A stretch of DNA of 36,117 nucleotides from Candidatus Jettenia ecosi (GCA_005524015.1 SULG01000030.1:1-36117); one strand, 5' to 3'. Counted from the first letter of the stretch, positions 24,483-34,410 are shown. The notes: a model not told the origin generated them from the letters alone. A program made the numbers and translations.

Positions 24483-25742
24483 ATGAAAATGGAAAAATCT
24501 CTTAAAGAATACTTGATAGACTTCTATCTTCACAAATCTGATGTTTTTTGCATCATGCCATGGGTGCATATGCATAGCTGGCCTGATGGCAGAATACTAC
24601 CATGCTGTTATGCGAAATGCGATCAACCCATCGGATATTTGAATAACGGTTTAAAAGTCGTTTGGAATAACGATGCTTATAAGATCTTTCGGCAAAAAAT
24701 GCTTAAAAATATTCCGATCCCCGAGTACTGCTATAAATGCTATGACTACGATAAGTCTGGAAACTTTTCTTATCGAAGGTATGCAAATAAAAAATTCGGG
24801 AAACATCTCTATGAGGCTTTAGACAAAACGGACGCAGATGGAACCTATAACGAGTTTACGCTTCGCTATTTGGATTTCCGGTTTTCAAACCTATGCAACC
24901 ATCGCTGTAGATCATGCGGTCATGGACTTTCAAGTAACTGGTATGATGAGCATGTGAAGATACATGGCGATCCCGGCCTTCCAAAGGTAATCAATTCAAA
25001 CAATCAAGCGTATCTTAAAGAGGTATTGGAAATACTTCCATCTGTAGAAGCTGTATATTTCGCAGGTGGCGAACCATTGATACAAGAGGAGCATTATCTT
25101 ATACTTAGCAAGCTTAGGGAAATAGGAAAAACCGATGTTGATCTTTCGTACAACACAAACTTATCTAGTCTCGGTATAAAGAATTATGATGTTTTTGATT
25201 TATGGCGTGGATTCAAAAGTCTCAGAATTGGCGCTAGTTTAGATGGTTCCGAAGGTCGTGGTGAGCTGCTAAGAAAAGGACAAAGTTGGGAAGTTATTGT
25301 GAGGAACAGGAAAAAATTAATGGAGAGCCCACCAGAGGTAGGATATTTTGAATTTGGAGTTTCAGCTACAGTTGGAGCCATGAATGTTCTTCACATTCCG
25401 GATTTCCACCGTGAATGGATTGATGCGGGTCTTATTCCTCCAAATGCTTTCCTAATCAACCCTATTATGGATCCAAATTTTTTACGGGTGAATATACTAC
25501 CGAGGGAATATAAAGATCAAGTAGAGAAAAAATATAAAACATTTATGAGAGAATGTCTATCGGGATATACGGAAACATACCAAGAATACGAAGCCTTTCT
25601 TAGGTTAATGTGGGAACATGATTTACAGGAGTATCTGCCTACTTATTTTTGGTGGATGAAGACACTGGACGAGAGTCGTGATGAAAACTTTGTGCAAGTT
25701 TTCCCAGAATGGAAAGAGCTTTTTCTAAAGTACGATAAATGA
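24483..25742 (+). CDS. Twitch-domain radical SAM protein
   Basis: The protein has 419 aa. An N-terminal Cys-rich region resembling a SPASM/twitch auxiliary cluster comes first (CIMPWVHMHSWPDGRILPCC at 23-42, C46, and CYKCYD at 83-88). The radical SAM core follows with the C-x3-C-x2-C motif at C138, C142, C145 (NLCNHRCRSC) and the AGGEPL glycine motif. This unusual order, auxiliary cluster before the core, is typical of the twitch-domain radical SAM family found in polysaccharide loci. The reaction is unknown; sugar or lipid-carrier modification is likely from its position between glycosyltransferases. Confidence 0.88.
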   Translation: MKMEKSLKEYLIDFYLHKSDVFCIMPWVHMHSWPDGRILPCCYAKCDQPIGYLNNGLKVVWNNDAYKIFRQKMLKNIPIPEYCYKCYDYDKSGNFSYRRYANKKFGKHLYEALDKTDADGTYNEFTLRYLDFRFSNLCNHRCRSCGHGLSSNWYDEHVKIHGDPGLPKVINSNNQAYLKEVLEILPSVEAVYFAGGEPLIQEEHYLILSKLREIGKTDVDLSYNTNLSSLGIKNYDVFDLWRGFKSLRIGASLDGSEGRGELLRKGQSWEVIVRNRKKLMESPPEVGYFEFGVSATVGAMNVLHIPDFHREWIDAGLIPPNAFLINPIMDPNFLRVNILPREYKDQVEKKYKTFMRECLSGYTETYQEYEAFLRLMWEHDLQEYLPTYFWWMKTLDESRDENFVQVFPEWKELFLKYDK

Positions 25743-25867: not shown

Positions 25868-27013
25868 ATGAGATGTAATCATCAGCTTATGGAAGGAAAA
25901 ATGATCCTGGAACCAGATCAATTTACTTCAGGCCAGCCTTTGGTGTCGGTCATTATCCCTGCATACAATGCGGAAGCTTTTATTCTGCATACATTAAATT
26001 CTGTGATTTCTCAAACTTACAAAAATATTGAGGTTATTGTAGTTGATGACGGCTCACATGATAAAACTGCAGAAATTGTAGAATCAATTATGCAGCGTGA
26101 TGACCGCGTGATACTTCTGCAACAGCCAAATTCGGGGGTCTCATCGGCACGTAACAAGGCAATTGAAAAATCCCGGGGTGAGTATATAGCACCTATTGAT
26201 GCTGATGACATTTGGTATCCTCAAAGCATCGAGAAACAAGTACAGTGTATGTTACACGCAGGACCAAGCACGGGAGTCGTCTATGCCTGGTCAGTGCATA
26301 TTGATGAAAAAGGCTTACTAACAGGCGGGCACAATGCTTTCGATTTAGAGGGTGATGTTTTTGAGGCATTAATGTTTAGTAACTTTATTGGCAATGGGAG
26401 CGCATCTTTGATTCGTCGCATATGTTTTAATCGAATTGGAGGGTATAACGCACAAGTTGAGCCTTGTGAGGATCTTGATTTATATCTCCGGATTGCAGAA
26501 CTTTATCAGTTTCACGTAGTAAAAGAGTTCCTGGTCGGGTACCGTAAAACTACCAACAGTAGGTCTTTTAATTGCAGAGGCATGGAAACTTCCCTGCGTA
26601 TAATACTAAGGAATAGAAAACAGCAATATCCTGATATTCCCTTGTTCTTTTATCGCTGGTCATGGGGTCATTATTATTTATATCTCAGTAGCCAAAGCAG
26701 GGTATCCGGCAACTACTGGATGAGCATTCACTACCTGTATAAAGCAGCACGGGCAGATCTTATTTTGCTCTTATATCCGGAATTTTACCGGTACCTGTGC
26801 AGATGCGGTTTGCGATTGGTGAAAAAAACGGTTATTTTTGCTGCCCGGATACTACATTGTCCTTCAGCAACTATTTTTAGAAAGGTAGGTACTACTCATA
26901 AAAAATTTACGATTTCTGACATCGAAATACGAAGTAGTCGCCGGCTACCGTACAGTTTGAATAAATTGCATCGAACCCGACTGCAACGTATTCATCGTTT
27001 ATTTGCAAAGTGA
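25868..27013 (+). CDS. Family 2 glycosyltransferase
   Basis: The protein has 381 aa from ATG 25868; an in-frame ATG at 25901 preceded by GGAAGGA is an alternative that removes 11 residues. GT-A features are PLVSVIIPAYNAEAFILHTLNSVISQTYKN, VIVVDDGSHDKTAE, NSGVSSARNKAI and the metal site APIDADDIWYP. CEDLDLYLRIAE, seen also in the other GT2 proteins, follows. The C-terminal third is basic and aromatic and could lie against the membrane. It is the third glycosyltransferase in the locus and precedes the decayed MFS gene. Confidence 0.9.
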   Translation: MRCNHQLMEGKMILEPDQFTSGQPLVSVIIPAYNAEAFILHTLNSVISQTYKNIEVIVVDDGSHDKTAEIVESIMQRDDRVILLQQPNSGVSSARNKAIEKSRGEYIAPIDADDIWYPQSIEKQVQCMLHAGPSTGVVYAWSVHIDEKGLLTGGHNAFDLEGDVFEALMFSNFIGNGSASLIRRICFNRIGGYNAQVEPCEDLDLYLRIAELYQFHVVKEFLVGYRKTTNSRSFNCRGMETSLRIILRNRKQQYPDIPLFFYRWSWGHYYLYLSSQSRVSGNYWMSIHYLYKAARADLILLLYPEFYRYLCRCGLRLVKKTVIFAARILHCPSATIFRKVGTTHKKFTISDIEIRSSRRLPYSLNKLHRTRLQRIHRLFAK

Positions 27014-27053
27014 AATCTGTTATGTGCAAGACTCCATCAGGCTCTCTTTCGCT

Positions 27054-27524
27054 ATGGCCAGAATAAAGACTCGTATTGAAAAAAGACACAAAAACAATAA
27101 ACTTTTCTATGGCTGGTGGATTGTTGTAGCGGCATCGGTCGGGCTTTTCATGAGCTATCCTCCCATCATGGTTTATAGCTTCAGTGTTTCTTAAAGCGCT
27201 AAACCAGGAGTTCAATTTGAGCCGTGCCGAGATCTCTTTTGCATTTTCCCTCGCTTCATTGTCAGCAATCCTCTGTGCTCCATTCGTTGGCCGATTCTTC
27301 GACCGCTTTGGCGCATGTAAGATAATTACCTATTCGATGCTGATTTTTAGCCTGTGTTTCATATCTCTTTATTTTCTTTTGCCAAACCTCCGGCACTTAT
27401 ATATCCTGTATTTTATCCTTGGGGCGCCGGCACGGGAACAACATCAATACCATACTCAAATGGAATATCTCACTGGTTCAAAATGAAGGCTTTCGTAGCC
27501 TTTTTATTTCTTACTTTGGGGTGA
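27054..27524 (+). pseudogene. Decayed major facilitator superfamily transporter
   Basis: An MFS N-terminus is readable only in pieces. ATG 27054 starts MARIKTRIEKRHKNNKLFYGWWIVVAASVGLFMSYPP and reaches a stop after YSFSVS at about 27194. The frame moves near 27184 to VFLKALNQEFNLSRAEISFAFSLASL...VGRFFDRFGACK (up to about 27425). It moves again to GTGTTSIPYSNGISHWFKMKAFVAFLFLTLG, ending at TGA 27522-27524. Only the first four or so helices of twelve remain. Two frame changes and a missing C-terminus mark a pseudogene; sequencing error alone would not explain the truncation. It may once have transported a building block. Confidence 0.8.
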
Positions 27525-27871
27525 ACATCTGATACAACGCCGTATTCATTTGATATGTTTCTTTCGGTATGGTTTTGGCAATACCAAATCCCGTATCCAG
27601 AGCGATAAGTTATAGGCCGGAGTTGTACACACAACAGATATACCCGTTTGCAAAAAATACTCCCATTGGAAGATGGCTCAGAAACTCATTCGCAAACTGG
27701 CAAATCCTTTTTTCTCACCCTTTCCACGCTTCGCATGAGTCTTCATAAGCTCCTAGACATTACCCTTACGATTGGGGTTACTACCACATAGTAAGAATAG
27801 GCTGCCGACTGAAAGAGTGAACGTTGACCTGCTTTGTTCTTCTAACGGTGTTTAGAAAAATGGAGACAGAT
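27525..27871. other. 347-bp stretch without a recognised gene
   Basis: It lies between the MFS pseudogene and the end of the RiPP cluster. Short open pieces exist on the minus strand (for example LDTGFGIAKTIPKETYQ near 27540-27600), but no family was recognised. It may be decayed coding or insertion sequence DNA. Confidence 0.5.
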
Positions 27872-28381
27872 TTAATAATCAGCCTCCGGAATTTGCTCCA
27901 TCTTATCAGGAAAACAATACGTTAACTTATAGGTTTTCGTTGCTTCTGTATTTCTTTCCAGGAAAATATCCCCATGGTAAAGAAGCCATGCATGACCCTC
28001 CAATTTCTTTTTTATCTCTCTCTCAAATACCTTATCATATTTCACTCCAAAACATACATGTACATCCATCCCCCATTTCCTCAAAAAATGATAGAGAACT
28101 AAAGTGCGCTTGAGGCAGATATTTTTGCTTTTCAAGGAATTACGACTCAGGATATAGTTCGTAAACTTCACTGCTTTACCTTTTAAATTCTTCAGTTCCA
28201 GGTTCTGGTAAACCTTCAAATCCCGTGGTGTTAACACTCTCATAAGCCTGGGAATGGAGAAGAGTCTTAGCATGACAGGCAACAAAATAATCATGAAAAA
28301 AATTTGAATAAAAAGCAAAAGATCCTCAAAGGAACGAAAATTTGCCCTAAACTTTTTTAGCATGCTAGTCTGACCACCCAT
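27872..28381 (-). CDS. Lasso-peptide B2-type leader peptidase (transglutaminase-like fold)
   Basis: The protein has 169 aa from ATG 28381 (AAAGG six bases upstream); TTG 28387 and ATG 28363 are alternatives. The pattern SKNICLKRTLVLYHFLRKWGMDVHVCFGV...LEGHAWLLYHGD is that of the B2 proteins of lasso-peptide clusters (Transglut_core3). The catalytic triad candidates are C89, H130 and D138. B2 is a cysteine protease that cuts the leader two residues after a conserved Thr, guided by the B1 element. A hydrophobic N-terminal segment (about residues 20-40) may anchor it to the membrane. Its start overlaps the end of the PqqD-like gene by 17 bases, so translation is coupled. Confidence 0.88.
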   Translation of the reverse strand: MGGQTSMLKKFRANFRSFEDLLLFIQIFFMIILLPVMLRLFSIPRLMRVLTPRDLKVYQNLELKNLKGKAVKFTNYILSRNSLKSKNICLKRTLVLYHFLRKWGMDVHVCFGVKYDKVFEREIKKKLEGHAWLLYHGDIFLERNTEATKTYKLTYCFPDKMEQIPEADY

Positions 28382-28667
28382 CTGCAACCTTTACTAATTT
28401 TTCCGTAATAAGTTCATCAATGAGATTAAGAATACTTTCTTTGGCTTTTTCAGGTGAAATATCAAATTCTTTTAAAAACTGCTCGCTTATCTCTTCAGGC
28501 GTAAGACCGCTATTTAGCATTTGCCAGATCCGCAGTCCAGTTTCATTTAAAGTAAAGTACATCTTTGTGCCTAGATGCAGAAGAACTGCCTCCTTGCCCT
28601 CTAAGCCCTCTAACTCCGTAACAACAACCTCAGGGTCAGGTGTTGCATGCTGGTTTAACTGGATCAT
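28365..28667 (-). CDS. PqqD-family RiPP recognition element (lasso B1-like)
   Basis: The protein has 100 aa. It matches the PqqD winged-helix fold that binds RiPP leader peptides and presents them to the modifying enzymes: VVVTELEGLEGKEAVLLHLGTKMYFTLNETGLRIWQMLNSGLTPEEI, then a helical SPEKAKESILNLIDELITEKLVK. GGGAGGT lies five bases before the ATG. It is coupled to the B2 gene and is separated from the radical SAM gene by a 277-bp repeat-bearing gap, so it may have its own promoter. Confidence 0.9.
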   Translation of the reverse strand: MIQLNQHATPDPEVVVTELEGLEGKEAVLLHLGTKMYFTLNETGLRIWQMLNSGLTPEEISEQFLKEFDISPEKAKESILNLIDELITEKLVKVADGWSD

Positions 28668-28813
28668 CGATACCTCCCGCTCATTTATTTAATGTACAAT
28701 AAATTTCAAACTCTTGTGATTCCCCTCTAAAAAGAGGCATACACTCCTTACTCCCCTTTCGGGCGGGGAAAGGATGTGTGGTTTTGCCGCAGCACACCCC
28801 CCGGCTACTATGG

Positions 28814-28868
28814 TAGGTCAAGCGTCTTCGCCTGACATCATGGTGACAAGCGGAGACGCTTGTCCTAT
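28814..28868. repeat. Imperfect 55-bp inverted repeat splitting the RiPP cluster
   Basis: Arms TAGGTCAAGCGTCTTCGCC and its near-complement GCGGAGACGCTTGTCCTA (28851-28868) fold back around CATCATGG. A second perfect short hairpin, AATGTACAG/CTGTACATT, lies at about 28912-28939. Both are in the only sizeable gap of the cluster (28668-28944) and look like inserted dispersed palindromes. Confidence 0.65.
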
Positions 28869-28944
28869 CAATGAGGGAAGCTTAAAAGTCGCTACCGAAG
28901 GCAGCCTAATGTACAGTTCACGATCTGTACATTACAACTCATAT

Positions 28945-29946
28945 TTATTTCGTCCAGACAAGGCTTGACCATGGATTTTCGGGGTAGTAGCTGAGCCAAT
29001 CTACTTTCCTGAAATAATTTAAGCAATACCAGCATGGAAAGTAGTCTGAATCTTTAAACTTTCCATTGTTATATAGTGTATGTTTATCTTTTTGAAACTT
29101 CCTGTTAGCCTGAACCAAACGCCCATAAGCCTCAGAAAAACGCATCTCATGCAAATTGCCTATTATATCATCATTTCCCACATCTTCTCCATGTCCGGAT
29201 AAATTACAGCACGCGGTAATATTACCCCTCCAATTGACACTAATTTCCTGCATTTTTAAAGGGGCACAGGGAAAGAGGTCTGTCGTATAGTATCCAGAAG
29301 CCATAACAATAGGCATATGCAAAGTATTTTGGAGTTGCCAAATGATAGCCTCAGTCTCCTTTCGCTCAGCAGGCGAAAGGCCCAGGTATTCCGTCTCAGT
29401 TCTCGGATGAGAAATAAGATGACCGAATCTCAGTCCTCGGCTTCCCAATTTAGCGGCAAGCCCAGCCATCTCTTTTAATTCGCCACGATTGTAGGATGTA
29501 ATGACTGTATTGAAGGTAAAGGGAACATCCTTTACCACACAAATGCTTACGGCCTGCATCATCCTCCGGTATGAGTCCCTTCCACGAAGCCTGTCATGTG
29601 TCTCTTCCCTGGCACCATCCAGGCTAAAGGTAATTCCTGTAAGCTTATTACTGTGAGGGAGCAACTTCTCATAAATTCTGGTAAAATTCCAACCGTTCGT
29701 AACAAAGCCAAAGTTATATCCGGCTTCGGATACCATCGTGAGCATCTCTGTAAATCCGGGATGCAACGTTGGCTCTCCACCGGTAAAGGAGATGTAATCA
29801 AAACCATGCTTCCTGGCATTTTGGAGAATCCTTTCGAAAATTTCTATTTTCAGGTCTCCATCACCACTATGCCTCCTATCAAGACAGTGATGACAGCTTA
29901 AATTACAGCGATTAGTAAGTTCTATTAACATCCCTCTATGGTTCAT
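28945..29946 (-). CDS. Radical SAM/SPASM peptide-modifying enzyme
   Basis: The protein has 333 aa. The radical SAM cluster motif is ELTNRCNLSCHHC (C14, C18, C21), followed by the glycine motif SFTGGEPTLHPGF. The C-terminal region has SPASM-like cysteines for auxiliary iron-sulfur clusters (FPCAPLKMQEISVNWRGNITACCNL and YFPCWYCLNYF). Such enzymes install C-C, C-S or C-O crosslinks or epimerise residues in RiPP precursors. It overlaps the kinase-like gene by 4 bases and lies in the same unit as the precursor peptide, which is its likely substrate. Confidence 0.9.
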   Translation of the reverse strand: MNHRGMLIELTNRCNLSCHHCLDRRHSGDGDLKIEIFERILQNARKHGFDYISFTGGEPTLHPGFTEMLTMVSEAGYNFGFVTNGWNFTRIYEKLLPHSNKLTGITFSLDGAREETHDRLRGRDSYRRMMQAVSICVVKDVPFTFNTVITSYNRGELKEMAGLAAKLGSRGLRFGHLISHPRTETEYLGLSPAERKETEAIIWQLQNTLHMPIVMASGYYTTDLFPCAPLKMQEISVNWRGNITACCNLSGHGEDVGNDDIIGNLHEMRFSEAYGRLVQANRKFQKDKHTLYNNGKFKDSDYFPCWYCLNYFRKVDWLSYYPENPWSSLVWTK

Positions 29947-30953
29947 TCTTGTTTTGTCTTCATAAAGATTTTGATATTGTTCAACAGAAAATCTGAAATC
30001 TTCTCAGGCTCTTCATAGAAGTCTCGCCCTGCAAGGAGTTCATAGCTATATGATTGAGATACAAGCCGCCTAAGGGTCTCTAAATGTACATTGACCCCCT
30101 GACGTTTAAAAAATAGTGATGCACTTTGTCTCATTAATTTGATTAAGGCAGATGTTTGATCTATGTGTATCAGCTTACTCTCAGGTTGAGAAACTATTTG
30201 GGTGTAAATCAATACTCTGGGAAAACAGTTTGACCAAAATTTATTGGGATATACCAGTTCCATATCTAAAAATCGCTTGGCACTCTCCTCATATATCGGT
30301 TCCTCAAGATAAGGCGCTATTTCAGGGTAGTGGCGGACCAAGGTAGTATCGAGATAAAAATGCTTCCGAAAGGCAAAGACCTCAACCCCAACCGCCGATG
30401 GTCTAAGAAAAAGAGTATCGTCTGAGATATATTGCCAGCCTTGATGAACCAAACTGAGAGCGGTACTTGATTTGCCGCTGCCTGACTTCCCTAAAAACAG
30501 ATACCCGATGCCTTCCCTTAACAGTGCGGCAGCATGAAGGTCATAGAAACCCAGAGGAGCAAGAAGATGGATAAGACCGATAAGAAAGAAGTTATACTTG
30601 GATAAAAGTGGTTTTTCCTTAAAAGAGCGATGGAGGGTTACGAACCCGGTTCCCGCTTGAGGCTGGAGCTGAAAAATGGATAATCCGTCAGTAAGGTAAA
30701 CACAGCCACCGGCCTCAAAGACCGATAAATCATAGCAGCAAAAAGGCCCTGATACCGAATGTGGGATATCCAGGGATGCATCAGTCGTGGTAAATTTCAA
30801 CTCAATATGAACGGAATTAGCTATACCGCTTAGTTTAACAAAGGGAAGGGGAGAGATGAATTGCTCAACTTCCACCTCGATCCCTTCCCCTTCCCATCGG
30901 ACCTCAACGGTTATTTCGTAGAAAGAGTAGAAAGAAACCCCTGCTTCAATCAT
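29943..30953 (-). CDS. HPr-kinase-like serine kinase/ATPase of a RiPP cluster
   Basis: The protein has 336 aa from ATG 30953 (GGGAAG upstream); the frame extends to a TTG at 30998. The C-terminal half has LHAAALLREGIGYLFLGKSGSGKSSTALSLV, with Walker A GKSGSGKS (155-162), and YISDDTLFLRP (about 177), both typical of HPr kinase/phosphorylase homologues. The N-terminal half is a beta-rich domain of no known family. Relatives occur in lasso clusters, where one phosphorylates the C-terminal serine of the peptide, and in SynChlorMet cassettes. Here the target could be the precursor's Ser53, the single core serine, but this is speculative. Confidence 0.8.
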   Translation of the reverse strand: MIEAGVSFYSFYEITVEVRWEGEGIEVEVEQFISPLPFVKLSGIANSVHIELKFTTTDASLDIPHSVSGPFCCYDLSVFEAGGCVYLTDGLSIFQLQPQAGTGFVTLHRSFKEKPLLSKYNFFLIGLIHLLAPLGFYDLHAAALLREGIGYLFLGKSGSGKSSTALSLVHQGWQYISDDTLFLRPSAVGVEVFAFRKHFYLDTTLVRHYPEIAPYLEEPIYEESAKRFLDMELVYPNKFWSNCFPRVLIYTQIVSQPESKLIHIDQTSALIKLMRQSASLFFKRQGVNVHLETLRRLVSQSYSYELLAGRDFYEEPEKISDFLLNNIKIFMKTKQE

Positions 30954-31047
30954 CTCAACTTCCCATTTTATTCGCTTGTTATAACTAAATAAAAGCAAAC
31001 AATATAATTTACCATATAAGTTGCTTTTATTTATCCTGAGGGAAACG

Positions 31048-31072
31048 AAAGATCTTTCAGAAAAGATCCTTT
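31048..31072. repeat. Short hairpin between precursor and kinase genes
   Basis: AAAGATCTTTCAGAAAAGATCCTTT folds as two near-complementary arms (AAAGATCTTT and AAAGATCCTTT). The flanking CGTTTCCCTCAGGATAA on the minus strand resembles a dispersed repeat. It may attenuate read-through from the precursor gene into the enzyme genes, but there is no strong T-run. Confidence 0.4.
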
Positions 31073-31126
31073 ACGTTGTCCAGAATAAATGAAACCCTTA
31101 CGTTATGAAAAAATATTTCTTTATTT

Positions 31127-31306
31127 TCATTCATATGGCGCAAAAGAACCAAAGAACCCACCGGTAATCTCAGTTGCATCCCCATGTTTCGTAAGCTTTG
31201 GCTCAATGAATGTTAATTTGGGCTCGGTAAAAGACTTTCTGGTTTGAGAATCACCTACCCCCTTAACTTCCTGATCTATATATCCTGCTGAAATTTTTCC
31301 TGACAT
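31127..31306 (-). CDS. RiPP precursor peptide with a lasso-type leader
   Basis: The peptide has 59 aa from ATG 31306; the AGGAGGTGAT site just upstream is a near-perfect Shine-Dalgarno sequence and decides against the GTG at 31315. The leader motif Y/F-x2-P-x-L-x3-G-x5-T-x is matched exactly: F33, P36, L38, G42, T48, G49. A copy of its first part sits just upstream (FTEPKLT 26-32, FIEPKLT 33-39). Cutting two residues after T48 would free a 10-residue core, GFFGSFAPYE. That core has only one acidic residue, the last, so a classic lasso ring (residue 7-9 acceptor plus tail) is unlikely. It is first in a unit with kinase-like, radical SAM, PqqD-like and B2 genes. Confidence 0.8.
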   Translation of the reverse strand: MSGKISAGYIDQEVKGVGDSQTRKSFTEPKLTFIEPKLTKHGDATEITGGFFGSFAPYE

Positions 31307-31458: not shown

Positions 31459-33810
31459 CTATGGACTAGGGACGTCGATTGTCGCTTGCATCTCTAGGCC
31501 TGCGGCCGAGATCGAGCGCAGGTTGAAGCCGCTTGGCGTGCCGTCCGCCCAACGCAGCTTAGCATGGGAAGGATCTGGATCCTCGGAGAGGAGATCGTAA
31601 TCTGTCCCAGGCTGTGCCCCATCCCACAGGGCCTGACTGTTATCAAAAAAAGCTGTCATGGGCCGGATCATCCGGATAGCGCGCCTACTCCAGGCGTCCG
31701 GAGGTAGCGTGTCCCAATCTTCTTGTTCGACGCCAGGCGGCGGGGGTACAGTCCCGTAAACGGCTGGGTCCTCCATGATGTGCCAGACCGCTAGTCCACC
31801 ATTGTCGTCAATCTCTCTATCATAGGAGTTCCCGCGCCAACGGTTCTCGACGATGAAATACTCCTTGGCCCCGTGCGTAGGGTTGAGGAGAACCCAGACA
31901 TCATGATGTTCCTCCACGTTGGGGAGTCTGTACTGTCCATCACGAAAGATGATCTTGGGCCGCACCCAGCCAAGCTTGAGCTTGTGGAAAGGATCCAGAT
32001 GGGGGGCTTCGATGTGCTGGTCCATCAGCGAATAGCCGCCTGCAGCAGAGGGGTTGTCAAATACATTGAGGCATTCTTTTTCGGGATCATCATCTCTATG
32101 CTTTAGGCAGTAGCCAAAGTACATGTCTTTCGCCCCAAGGAGTAGGTGGCTTAGCTCATGGGCAACAAGACCAATATTTGGCGGGTTGCCGATATAAAAC
32201 TCAGCCATGACATTCACTTGCACGCCGTCTACTATTAGCGGTTCCTTGGTAGGATATTCACGGCCAACAACGCCATTAACAGTACCAAAAGGATTATCCT
32301 GAGGAATAATAATCGAAATCCCCAGTTCATCAGGACTAAGCACCTTGTCACCATTGCTGTCATAGGCTGCGAAATCGAAATCAACATCGGCCTTGCGAAT
32401 CGCCTCGGCCCACTTCTCAGCGTGGCCATTTAACCAACCATCCTTGTCCTTATCGATTGGATCGTTCTTCTCGTTTTCATTTGCGTAATGATCAAAGGGC
32501 TTGTCAGCGTCATACCAGCCAAACACGCCTGCATTCTCAATAGTGAAGTAGCCATTACTGTTCTCCAGGAAGTAATCACGTACGCTGTTTGTTACTCCAA
32601 AGAGCGCGTCTTCGATTACGGATCGGTCTAGCCTCGGATCACTATCCCAATCCCAGAGTATGGCGATAATATTGCGGGGTGTCCTGACCCGCTTGAGCGA
32701 CTGAAATGGATTACCCAGACCATCGGTCAAAAGCCGAGGTTTGGAATACCCCCAAAAGACCAAGAGGTGTCCGTTTTGATCCGGTGCCGCGAAGTGCTCG
32801 ACCACACTATCACCATCGGTGGTAAGCCAACTTGCTGGATCAGCAGAGATCGTGCGACCGGTGATCTCTGACAGGTTCACAGCCTGCCAATCGCGTGATG
32901 GCTTCCACCAATACAGGAGTAAGGATCCCGATGGGCTGCGAGTACCCAGTAGCTCCACGTTCTCGTTACCGTCTGCAAGCTGGTAGACCGTCGGTACGCC
33001 GTTGGCTACCTTTCCGTCTGCTACGTGTGATGTAACGTTGACGAATTGCCAATCAGCACGGGGCGACCAGTAGAACACCAGCAGATCCCCGTTTTGACTC
33101 TGCCCGGCAAGGTGTTCGACCGTATAGCGGCCGTCTCTCGTCTGCCAACTGGTTACTGGTCCAACAATCTTCTGACCAGTCTTCTCGGTAACGTTGACGA
33201 ATTGCCAATCAGCACGGGGCGACCAGTAGAACACCAGCAGATCCCCGTTTTGACTCTGCCCGGCAAGGTGTTCGACCGTATAGCGGCCGTCTGGCGTCTG
33301 CCAACTGGTTACTGGTCCGGCAATCTTCTGGCCAGTAATTGCTGTCACATCAACAGGGTCGGGCATTCCACCAACCCGAACGACTGTGCCCAACGCATCC
33401 ACATGAAAGGTAAACTTGCTTGGGGAAGCAAGGCCTATGATAAAATCAACTTTAAAATTTTCTTCCGGGCTGAGTGCCCCATCGAAATAATTTCCTGTAA
33501 AAGGCACGGTTAATGTGCTCCCAATACCTCCTGCATGCCCATCTGCATTTAGGAGCAGATTCCCGCCAGTTAGTTGTATTACTTGAAAAGCTAGTTTAGT
33601 TAGATTATCTTTAGAAGCATTCTTAAATGTTGCTGTGATAGTAAACGTTCCCCAAGCCCCACCATCAACAGGCGTTGGATTAAAGCTTGTCTTTGTCCCG
33701 ATCAGTGAAAGACGGTTGTTTATAAGTTCTTGTTCTTGGGCAAAAGATTTAGGAAGGAACCAACTGCTGACAACGGAAATAATAACGGTAATTATACAAA
33801 TGCATCTCAT
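31459..33810 (-). CDS. Secreted M6-like zinc metalloprotease with repeat domain
   Basis: The protein has 783 aa from ATG 33810, eight bases after AGGAGG; ATGs further upstream are in frame but less well placed. A signal peptide (MRCICIITVIISVVSSWFLPKSFAQ) sends it out of the cytoplasm. A beta domain follows, then four repeats of about 50 residues with the pattern GDLLVFYWSPRADWQFVNV; the first two are almost identical. The catalytic domain holds the zinc motif HELSH (H551, E552, H555) and EF-hand-like loops (DKDKDGWLNG, DSNGDKVLSPDEL), typical of immune inhibitor A-type (M6) proteases. It is visibly GC-richer than its neighbours, suggesting transfer. It is likely a degradative or surface enzyme; its target is unknown. 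Confidence 0.8.
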   Translation of the reverse strand: MRCICIITVIISVVSSWFLPKSFAQEQELINNRLSLIGTKTSFNPTPVDGGAWGTFTITATFKNASKDNLTKLAFQVIQLTGGNLLLNADGHAGGIGSTLTVPFTGNYFDGALSPEENFKVDFIIGLASPSKFTFHVDALGTVVRVGGMPDPVDVTAITGQKIAGPVTSWQTPDGRYTVEHLAGQSQNGDLLVFYWSPRADWQFVNVTEKTGQKIVGPVTSWQTRDGRYTVEHLAGQSQNGDLLVFYWSPRADWQFVNVTSHVADGKVANGVPTVYQLADGNENVELLGTRSPSGSLLLYWWKPSRDWQAVNLSEITGRTISADPASWLTTDGDSVVEHFAAPDQNGHLLVFWGYSKPRLLTDGLGNPFQSLKRVRTPRNIIAILWDWDSDPRLDRSVIEDALFGVTNSVRDYFLENSNGYFTIENAGVFGWYDADKPFDHYANENEKNDPIDKDKDGWLNGHAEKWAEAIRKADVDFDFAAYDSNGDKVLSPDELGISIIIPQDNPFGTVNGVVGREYPTKEPLIVDGVQVNVMAEFYIGNPPNIGLVAHELSHLLLGAKDMYFGYCLKHRDDDPEKECLNVFDNPSAAGGYSLMDQHIEAPHLDPFHKLKLGWVRPKIIFRDGQYRLPNVEEHHDVWVLLNPTHGAKEYFIVENRWRGNSYDREIDDNGGLAVWHIMEDPAVYGTVPPPPGVEQEDWDTLPPDAWSRRAIRMIRPMTAFFDNSQALWDGAQPGTDYDLLSEDPDPSHAKLRWADGTPSGFNLRSISAAGLEMQATIDVPSP
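33034..33345. repeat. Near-identical 156-bp tandem duplication in the protease gene
   Basis: Unit 33034-33189 is repeated at 33190-33345 with only a handful of differences (for example TCTCGTC versus TGGCGTC and ACAATCTTCTGACC versus GCAATCTTCTGGCC). It encodes 52 residues, the repeat TGQKIxGPVTSWQTxDGRYT onward. The high identity shows a recent in-frame duplication. Confidence 0.9.
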
Positions 33811-33885
33811 TGCCATATCCTCCTTGTTTTTTAATTTAGGTGTCACAAAAATCACTTGCAGAATTTGGGTTATAATCAATCTACA

Positions 33886-34410
33886 CTACTGCTCCTTTTC
33901 AAACTCCGAAGGATCGAACTCAAATTTAAATGGCTCTGATCGTGTAGGCTTTTCTTTGATAGTTTCTTCTGATGCTGGCGATGGTAACTCCTGTCTTGCA
34001 ACTACTTCTCTTAATTTGCCTTCTGGTAGGATAGTTATTTTCATTACCCTTCCTTTCTCCTTCCCCGACTCCTTTATAAATGCGTAGTTTTTGCTTAAGC
34101 TCTTTATGGCATCTTCCAGGGGAAGCTTGTTAAATGCCAGCGTAATCCTCTCATCGGGGATATTGGCAACCATTTCGATCTTCATCCTCCGGCCTATCGC
34201 TTCTAAGATTTCTTTTACTGAAGCATCCCTTGCCCTGAGAGAGAGAAGGCTGTCGTTTGTCGTGAGAATAAATTTAGATTTACGCACCGATTCTCCTTCG
34301 GTCTTTCTATCAGTCTCCCCTCCAAACAGACCCGCCGTGATTATTAGTAAAGGTAAAAGCAAGATAATAACCCCAGAACACCTTTCCATCCCTCTCCTTA
34401 CGTTGCACAT
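33886..34410 (-). CDS. Small STN/secretin N-domain-like protein
   Basis: The protein has 174 aa. A hydrophobic segment (about residues 13-31, GVIILLLPLLIITAGLFGG) is a signal peptide or anchor. Residues about 50-110 match the short secretin/TonB (STN) domain: LLSLRARDASVKEILEAIGRRMKIEMV, then ERITLAFNKLPLEDAIKSLSKNY. The C-terminal tail is charged and low in complexity. AAGGAGG lies about ten bases before ATG 34410; a later ATG at 34389 also has a ribosome site. It may act in the periplasm with a secretin or as a periplasmic adaptor. It lies 75 bases upstream of the metalloprotease gene on the same strand and may be co-transcribed with it. Confidence 0.7.
   Translation of the reverse strand: MCNVRRGMERCSGVIILLLPLLIITAGLFGGETDRKTEGESVRKSKFILTTNDSLLSLRARDASVKEILEAIGRRMKIEMVANIPDERITLAFNKLPLEDAIKSLSKNYAFIKESGKEKGRVMKITILPEGKLREVVARQELPSPASEETIKEKPTRSEPFKFEFDPSEFEKEQ

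Follow-up and report, generated by a model that had tools for sequence, protein, structure and literature searches.

What is made by an operon that keeps the leader, the leader-binding protein and the leader peptidase of a lasso peptide pathway but has no lasso cyclase? The question is raised by a stretch of 36,117 nucleotides from Candidatus Jettenia ecosi (GCA_005524015.1 SULG01000030.1:1-36117), hereafter the window. Its minus strand encodes between positions 27872 and 31306, in the order of transcription, a small precursor peptide, an HprK-like kinase, a radical S-adenosylmethionine (SAM) enzyme, a PqqD-like B1 protein and a B2 peptidase; the radical SAM gene overlaps the kinase gene by 4 nt, and the B2 gene overlaps the B1 gene. 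We propose that these genes probably constitute a pathway for a ribosomally synthesized and post-translationally modified peptide (RiPP) in which a lasso front end is retained, the cyclase is replaced by the radical SAM enzyme and the product is tied to a family of surface proteins. A first-pass annotation of the window had located the five genes, all of which are present where it placed them, and had read them as a union of lasso leader processing with radical SAM and kinase enzymes in place of the cyclase. That combination holds as a conserved gene family, and to it are added here a link to upstream secreted proteins, a nucleotidyltransferase found in other genomes and a spread over several phyla.

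The precursor starts at ATG 31306, preceded by the Shine-Dalgarno sequence AGGAGGTG, and comprises 59 residues (MSGKISAGYIDQEVKGVGDSQTRKSFTEPKLTFIEPKLTKHGDATEITGGFFGSFAPYE). Lasso leaders carry YxxPxL at positions −17 to −12 and Thr at −2 (PMC10368454). In the window F33-I-E-P-K-L38 occupies positions −17 to −12 and T48 position −2 relative to the core G50-FFGSFAPYE, so that the lasso spacing claimed by the first-pass annotation is indeed found, with Phe in place of Tyr at the first residue of the motif. A duplicate of the element, FxEPKL, lies immediately before FIEPKL, and the NCBIfam lasso-leader models stay below cut-off on this precursor (NF033528, 20.5 for 33 bits; NF033521, 16.7 for 19 bits). 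When 21 leader codons of the window were compared with those of five relatives, 5-12 codons differed synonymously and 1-4 nonsynonymously; as the changes are mostly synonymous, the leader is under purifying selection.

Comparison of the cores among relatives, a check already proposed with the first annotation, was carried out on 21 aligned precursors. After a variable spacer following Thr(−2) the cores read F-F-G-x-F-x-P, the family consensus being FFG(S/T)FxP; examples are GFFGTFVP, GFFGSFTP, GFFGPFSP, AFFGSFRP, NGLFGTFTP and NNGFFSIFKP. Ser or Thr is present in all 21 cores, Cys in none, and most cores are devoid of Trp and Tyr as well. The constant Ser/Thr fits the target of a kinase, while the radical SAM reaction is not identified by the core, except that the lack of Cys excludes thioether chemistry. 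Sactipeptides and ranthipeptides, whose thioethers need a Cys in the core, were rejected on this ground.

The enzymes of the operon vary in how closely they match known families. The B2-like protein passes the NCBIfam lasso B2 model NF033537 (cut-off 33 bits) and is the sole PF13471 match listed for the genome of the window. The PqqD-like protein passes Pfam PF05402 and reaches 46-47 bits on the lasso PqqD models, below their cut-offs of 70-80. The kinase, whose start was placed at ATG 30953 on the evidence of its homologues (the frame is open to TTG 30998), is weakly HPr-kinase-like (HprK_rel_A/B, 32 bits for a cut-off of 200; PF07475, 30 for 33); its His, the Lys of its GxSGSGKS Walker-A motif and its Asp-Asp pair are shared by all 13 homologues compared, and the His-Lys-Asp-Asp residues are reported to be essential in the lasso kinase ThcoK (PMC9266682). 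The radical SAM enzyme matches PF04055 clearly (78 bits), CNLSCHHC providing the CxxxCxxC motif, and its match to the SPASM Pfam model is marginal (19.9 for 21.5 bits). C227, C246, C305 and C308 are invariant in 17 of 17 homologues, as are C136 and C247; the former four possibly represent a single auxiliary-cluster set, at best a one-cluster SPASM region. Among the solved structures closest to it in sequence or fold are SkfB, PqqE, SuiB, YydG and BlsE. Hence the earlier assignments of B1-like, B2-like and HPr-kinase-like proteins are confirmed, whereas of the earlier radical SAM/SPASM label the first half stands and the second does not go beyond a marginal match.

The cyclase, stated to be missing by the first-pass annotation, was not seen in the window, nor was any AsnB-like gene seen in the operon neighbourhoods of the relatives. 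A cyclase gene elsewhere had been named beforehand as refuting the earlier reading; this refutation fails in the closed single-contig genome G012, which contains the whole operon and whose sole PF00733 match is a LarE-like protein of 271-277 residues, and in genome G028 the only match, of ~300 residues, is also LarE-like. Among the matches listed, five AsnB-like genes lie elsewhere in the genome of the window, two of which encode proteins of 611-632 residues without Cys2; the four that were scanned (L001, L003, L004 and L005) reached 80-236 bits, where the lasso cyclase model requires 525. The acid that closes the lasso macrolactam ring is usually an Asp or Glu at core position 7-9. No acidic residue occupies these positions in any of the 21 precursors; Asp and Glu are absent from the core in 18 of them, and in the others stand at position 10 (the window), 1 and 14. 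The earlier description of the core as a poor lasso substrate is therefore maintained, but the acidic residue at the core end, on which it also relied, is a peculiarity of the window's species and not a family trait. With no ring acid at 7-9 and no cyclase in the closed operon genome, an ordinary lasso product is very unlikely.

The operon is complete in 14 loci, including the window, and partial in five, several of the relative loci coming from fragmented assemblies. It is found in anammox Planctomycetes, a Deltaproteobacterium, a Thermodesulfovibrionia bacterium, Nitrospira and, in a partial form, a Bryobacteraceae bacterium; the nearest gene-bearing relatives of the window are anammox Planctomycetes of the order Brocadiales, among them Candidatus Loosdrechtia, Brocadia, Scalindua and Anammoxibacter. 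A nucleotidyltransferase gene (PF14907, NTP_transf_5) follows B2 or B1 in many operon copies and a GNAT acetyltransferase gene is present in five; the window lacks the former, for which the rest of its genome was not searched. A distant version of the operon occurs in Acidobacteria, where the radical SAM protein is 33-38% identical and the precursors are such as ...FVEPELKAFDHLEKQIQGLRVLEAFSASFLAP. In four acidobacterial loci the core varies, with LLGPFTP or an EAFxxSF-type end, and several of the leaders have Ile at −2, as reported for phosphorylated lasso peptides of Acidobacteria (PMC10368454).

In most loci the precursor gene is immediately preceded, on its own strand, by the gene of a large secreted protein. 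The bodies of these proteins vary (SBBP or NHL-like propellers, M6 protease and others), and common to them is an immunoglobulin (Ig)-like domain of ~106 residues that is matched by no Pfam or NCBIfam model. AlphaFold gives for the domain a confident beta-sandwich (predicted local distance difference test, pLDDT, 96), with which a structure search returned generic beta-sandwich matches, none at E<0.001. Among 59 Brocadiales genomes the domain is present in 10, the radical SAM gene in 10 and both in 9 (Fisher p = 8e-9, uncorrected for kinship), so that the domain occurs in 9 of 10 operon-bearing genomes and in 1 of the 49 others. In that exception, G030, which has no radical SAM match, a precursor lies beside the domain gene at a contig end. 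Outside the Planctomycetes, strong domain matches were obtained in 7 of 10 genomes with a close operon and in none of 61 sampled operon-less genomes (p = 9e-8, likewise uncorrected). Some genomes contain up to 21 copies of the domain, most of them away from the operon. Second pairs of a secreted Ig-domain protein and a precursor lie beside or away from the operon: one at 9.5-11.8 kb of locus L029, with its own kinase copy, and another at G055:C10:106109 (L116). A small secreted protein with a conserved PFKFEFDPSEF or PFQFTFDPSQH C-terminus and a weak PilQ match, encoded in the window and also in seven other loci, adjoins Ig-domain proteins in several phyla.

In Brocadiaceae, large secreted proteins end in FFGRFRP, FFGRFYP or FFRRFHP, that is, in the motif of the precursor core. 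In a search of the 59 genomes for FFGxFxP followed by a stop codon, the long open reading frames (ORFs) that ended in this way, six in number, belonged to five genomes, all of them operon-bearing (p = 5e-5, counted by genome); the remaining matches were precursors or short frames. Some tails resemble the precursor further back than the motif (EPKLTKHGDATKITGNGLFGTFTP compared with EPNRAKFKKRSKVTRKGFFGRFRP). When a hidden Markov model of the precursors was applied to 12 tails and to shuffled linkers, three tails beat all 200 shuffles, four more were reached by ≤6 of 200 and five were indistinguishable, a result that is not independent evidence since the tails are related to one another. In the upstream protein of the window the domain lies close to the N-terminus, and the tail is lacking. 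The link between operon and Ig-like domain shows an association, not a mechanism; the peptide may act with the Ig-domain proteins, mimic their tail or share enzymes with them.

Taking into account that: (i) the front end of the pathway is of lasso type; (ii) the cyclase is missing, and (iii) a radical SAM enzyme is present in its place, the simplest interpretation is a pathway for a RiPP with a lasso leader and without cyclization by a lasso cyclase. From the genes, their conservation, the core motif, the catalytic residues, the absence of the cyclase and the co-occurrence with the Ig-like domain we infer every chemical step, the order of the steps and the function, as follows. The PqqD/B1-like protein would bind the FxEPKL leader. 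As with PadeK and BsfK, phosphorylation of a Ser or Thr in the core by the kinase would most likely precede cleavage, and the final peptide is probably phosphorylated. The radical SAM enzyme would modify the Phe-Phe-Gly-X-Phe core, with carbon-carbon crosslinking of a Phe side chain as our preferred guess and epimerisation of the backbone as its chief rival. Where encoded, the nucleotidyltransferase and, in some lineages, the GNAT acetyltransferase would add further decoration. B2 would then cut behind Thr(−2)-Xaa(−1) and so free a peptide of some 7-14 residues, linear or crosslinked, that would work together with the co-encoded large secreted Ig-domain proteins, some of which bear the same C-terminal motif. 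A bolder extension, to which we assign a low probability, is that one set of radical SAM, B1 and B2 proteins, or else one receptor, acts on the FFGRFRP-tailed surface proteins as well as on the leader-guided small peptide, a natural-product pathway thereby doubling as a system for protein-tail modification or sorting.

Several points weigh against this proposal. All the evidence consists of sequence and prediction. The nearest NCBIfam families score far below their cut-offs, and the chemistry of the enzymes is therefore not transferable by homology. Several members have Pro, Gly, Ala, Val or Ile at core position 4, which therefore cannot provide one universally targeted residue. No peptide exporter is encoded inside the cluster. 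In locus L033, from the anammox genome G036, the precursor, radical SAM, PqqD and GNAT genes are present and neither kinase nor B2 was detected beside them, which implies that neither is strictly needed locally. Finally, genome G024 has the operon without an Ig-domain partner.

Other explanations have to be confronted with the same data. The radical SAM enzyme might be a YydG-like peptide epimerase and not a crosslinker, the product being then a short linear phosphopeptide with D-amino acids. YydG is among the solved structures matched by sequence, one possible auxiliary-cluster set is present, the invariant C136 and C247 could donate hydrogen, and most cores lack the Cys, Trp and Tyr that are favourites of many crosslinkers; nevertheless, the match to YydG is weaker (46 bits) than those to SkfB and PqqE (69-77 bits) and the strict Phe pattern suggests that the aromatic side chains are important. 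We place epimerisation second to crosslinking, with a fairly low probability. Somewhat more doubtful is that the small ORF encodes no peptide natural product and serves as substrate, chaperone or regulator in the building or sorting of the neighbouring secreted proteins, its FFGxFxP end mimicking their tail. The position of the Ig-domain gene ahead of the precursor, the co-occurrence of domain and operon with many dispersed domain copies, and the confinement of tailed ORFs to operon-bearing genomes would be explained in this way. However, the tails are limited to Brocadiaceae, the domain being kept without a tail in Scalindua, Nitrospira and others, and the enzyme set and the leader are those of a RiPP.

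A true lasso pathway with its cyclase elsewhere in the genome is far less probable still. It could invoke the lasso type of the leader, B1, B2, kinase and nucleotidyltransferase together with the distant AsnB-like genes, in particular the two without Cys2, but it is largely refuted by the core residues, by the survey of PF00733 in G012 and G028 and by the sub-cut-off scores of the AsnB-like proteins, and no second B2 exists in the genome. As for the possibility that unrelated genes have come together by chance or are decaying, disrupted transporter-like fragments do lie downstream of B2, where the window lacks the nucleotidyltransferase gene; yet the same gene set is present in many genomes of several phyla, with catalytic residues intact and the leader under purifying selection. 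Conservation of the operon thus refutes chance, and we give decay practically no credence. The reading that best survives is that of a RiPP pathway with a lasso front end, in which the cyclase has given way to a radical SAM enzyme.

Table 1. Features of the operon and its upstream neighbours in the window
Feature	Positions	Strand	Basis
RiPP precursor, 59 residues; leader 1-49, core 50-59	31127..31306	-	ORF, Shine-Dalgarno, alignment with 21 homologues
FIEPKL leader motif, predicted to bind PqqD/B1	31193..31210	-	Lasso-like spacing; conserved in precursor family
Core peptide GFFGSFAPYE; family consensus FFG(S/T)FxP	31130..31159	-	21 precursors aligned
HprK/PadeK-like kinase	29943..30953	-	Weak profile matches; His, Walker-A Lys and Asp-Asp invariant in 13/13
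Radical SAM maturase	28945..29946	-	CNLSCHHC plus C227, C246, C305, C308; additional invariant C136, C247
PqqD-like protein (lasso B1/RiPP recognition element)	28365..28667	-	PF05402, 63 bits; top NCBIfam matches are lasso PqqD families
B2-type transglutaminase-fold leader peptidase	27872..28381	-	NF033537, 40.9 bits; PF13471; catalytic Cys and His invariant in 13/13 homologues
Large secreted protein directly upstream of precursor: Ig-like domain, repeats, M6-like metalloprotease	31459..33879	-	
Conserved Ig-like domain (~106 residues) of upstream protein, without named family	33388..33696	-	Co-occurs with operon
Small secreted protein, weak secretin-like (PilQ) match, C-terminus PFKFEFDPSEF	33886..34410	-	Recurs beside operon in other loci

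Other elements were noticed around these genes. Two inverted repeats separate the radical SAM gene from the PqqD gene, at 28811-28870 (30-nt arms, 80% complementary, no spacer) and 28907-28934 (13-nt arms, 92%), which possibly constitute a small mobile element or an attenuator. At 27003-27800, the position of the nucleotidyltransferase in the relatives, fragments resembling a major facilitator transporter are broken across frames and are probably a pseudogene. On the plus strand, at 24483-25742, a radical SAM protein with an N-terminal twitch (NF033640, 371 bits) is encoded among glycosyltransferase and polysaccharide-export genes; given its opposite strand and its glycan surroundings, and as no relation to the operon was seen, it was not counted as part of it.

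No description of this cluster, the precursor family, the core motif or the tail was found in the open-access full-text literature. In the parts of the RRE-Finder study consulted, ~300 proteins matching lasso models of the RiPP recognition element (RRE) are reported to adjoin radical SAM enzymes and are classed as false positives, and those parts describe no precursor, core motif or operon of the present kind (PMC7470986). The family, which reaches across several phyla and has members in anammox bacteria and Nitrospira, could be missed by lasso finders based on the cyclase. Moreover, a motif common to a RiPP core and to large secreted proteins, together with the fact that operon and Ig-like domain are found almost only in each other's company, offers a testable link between a peptide pathway and surface proteins.

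The radical SAM enzyme resembles the RiPP maturases SkfB, PqqE, SuiB and YydG in having a radical SAM core with a C-terminal Cys motif. It differs in that its partner RRE is a lasso-type B1 and its substrate has no Cys, which sets it apart from sacti- and ranthipeptide chemistry, and its identity to SkfB, PqqE and SuiB in structural alignments is about 14-23%. The HprK-related kinase A/B families (TIGR04352, TIGR04355) are the top NCBIfam matches of the kinase, although at the low score given above. The SynChlorMet cassette (ScmC/D/E/F; NCBIfam) also unites PqqD-like, HprK-like and radical SAM proteins, but it has two radical SAM enzymes where this operon has one plus a B2 peptidase and a lasso leader; membership was rejected, since the Scm models score far below their cut-offs (ScmC 17 for 125 bits, ScmD 29 for 100, ScmE/F 68-75 for 400), as expected from the first-pass view of a resemblance without identity. 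With the phosphorylated lasso clusters of paeninodin, pseudomycoidin and bsf, the operon shares the leader motif and spacing, the PqqD-type B1, B2 and an HprK-like kinase with the His-Lys-Asp-Asp residues, and the nucleotidyltransferase of the window's relatives is of the same kind as psmN of the pseudomycoidin cluster. Unlike them, it has no lasso cyclase, ABC exporter or core ring acid, and it has instead an extra radical SAM enzyme and a core ending in FFGxFxP. The module of lasso leader, B1, B2 and kinase is hence not tied to the lasso fold, evolution having coupled it here to a radical SAM enzyme.

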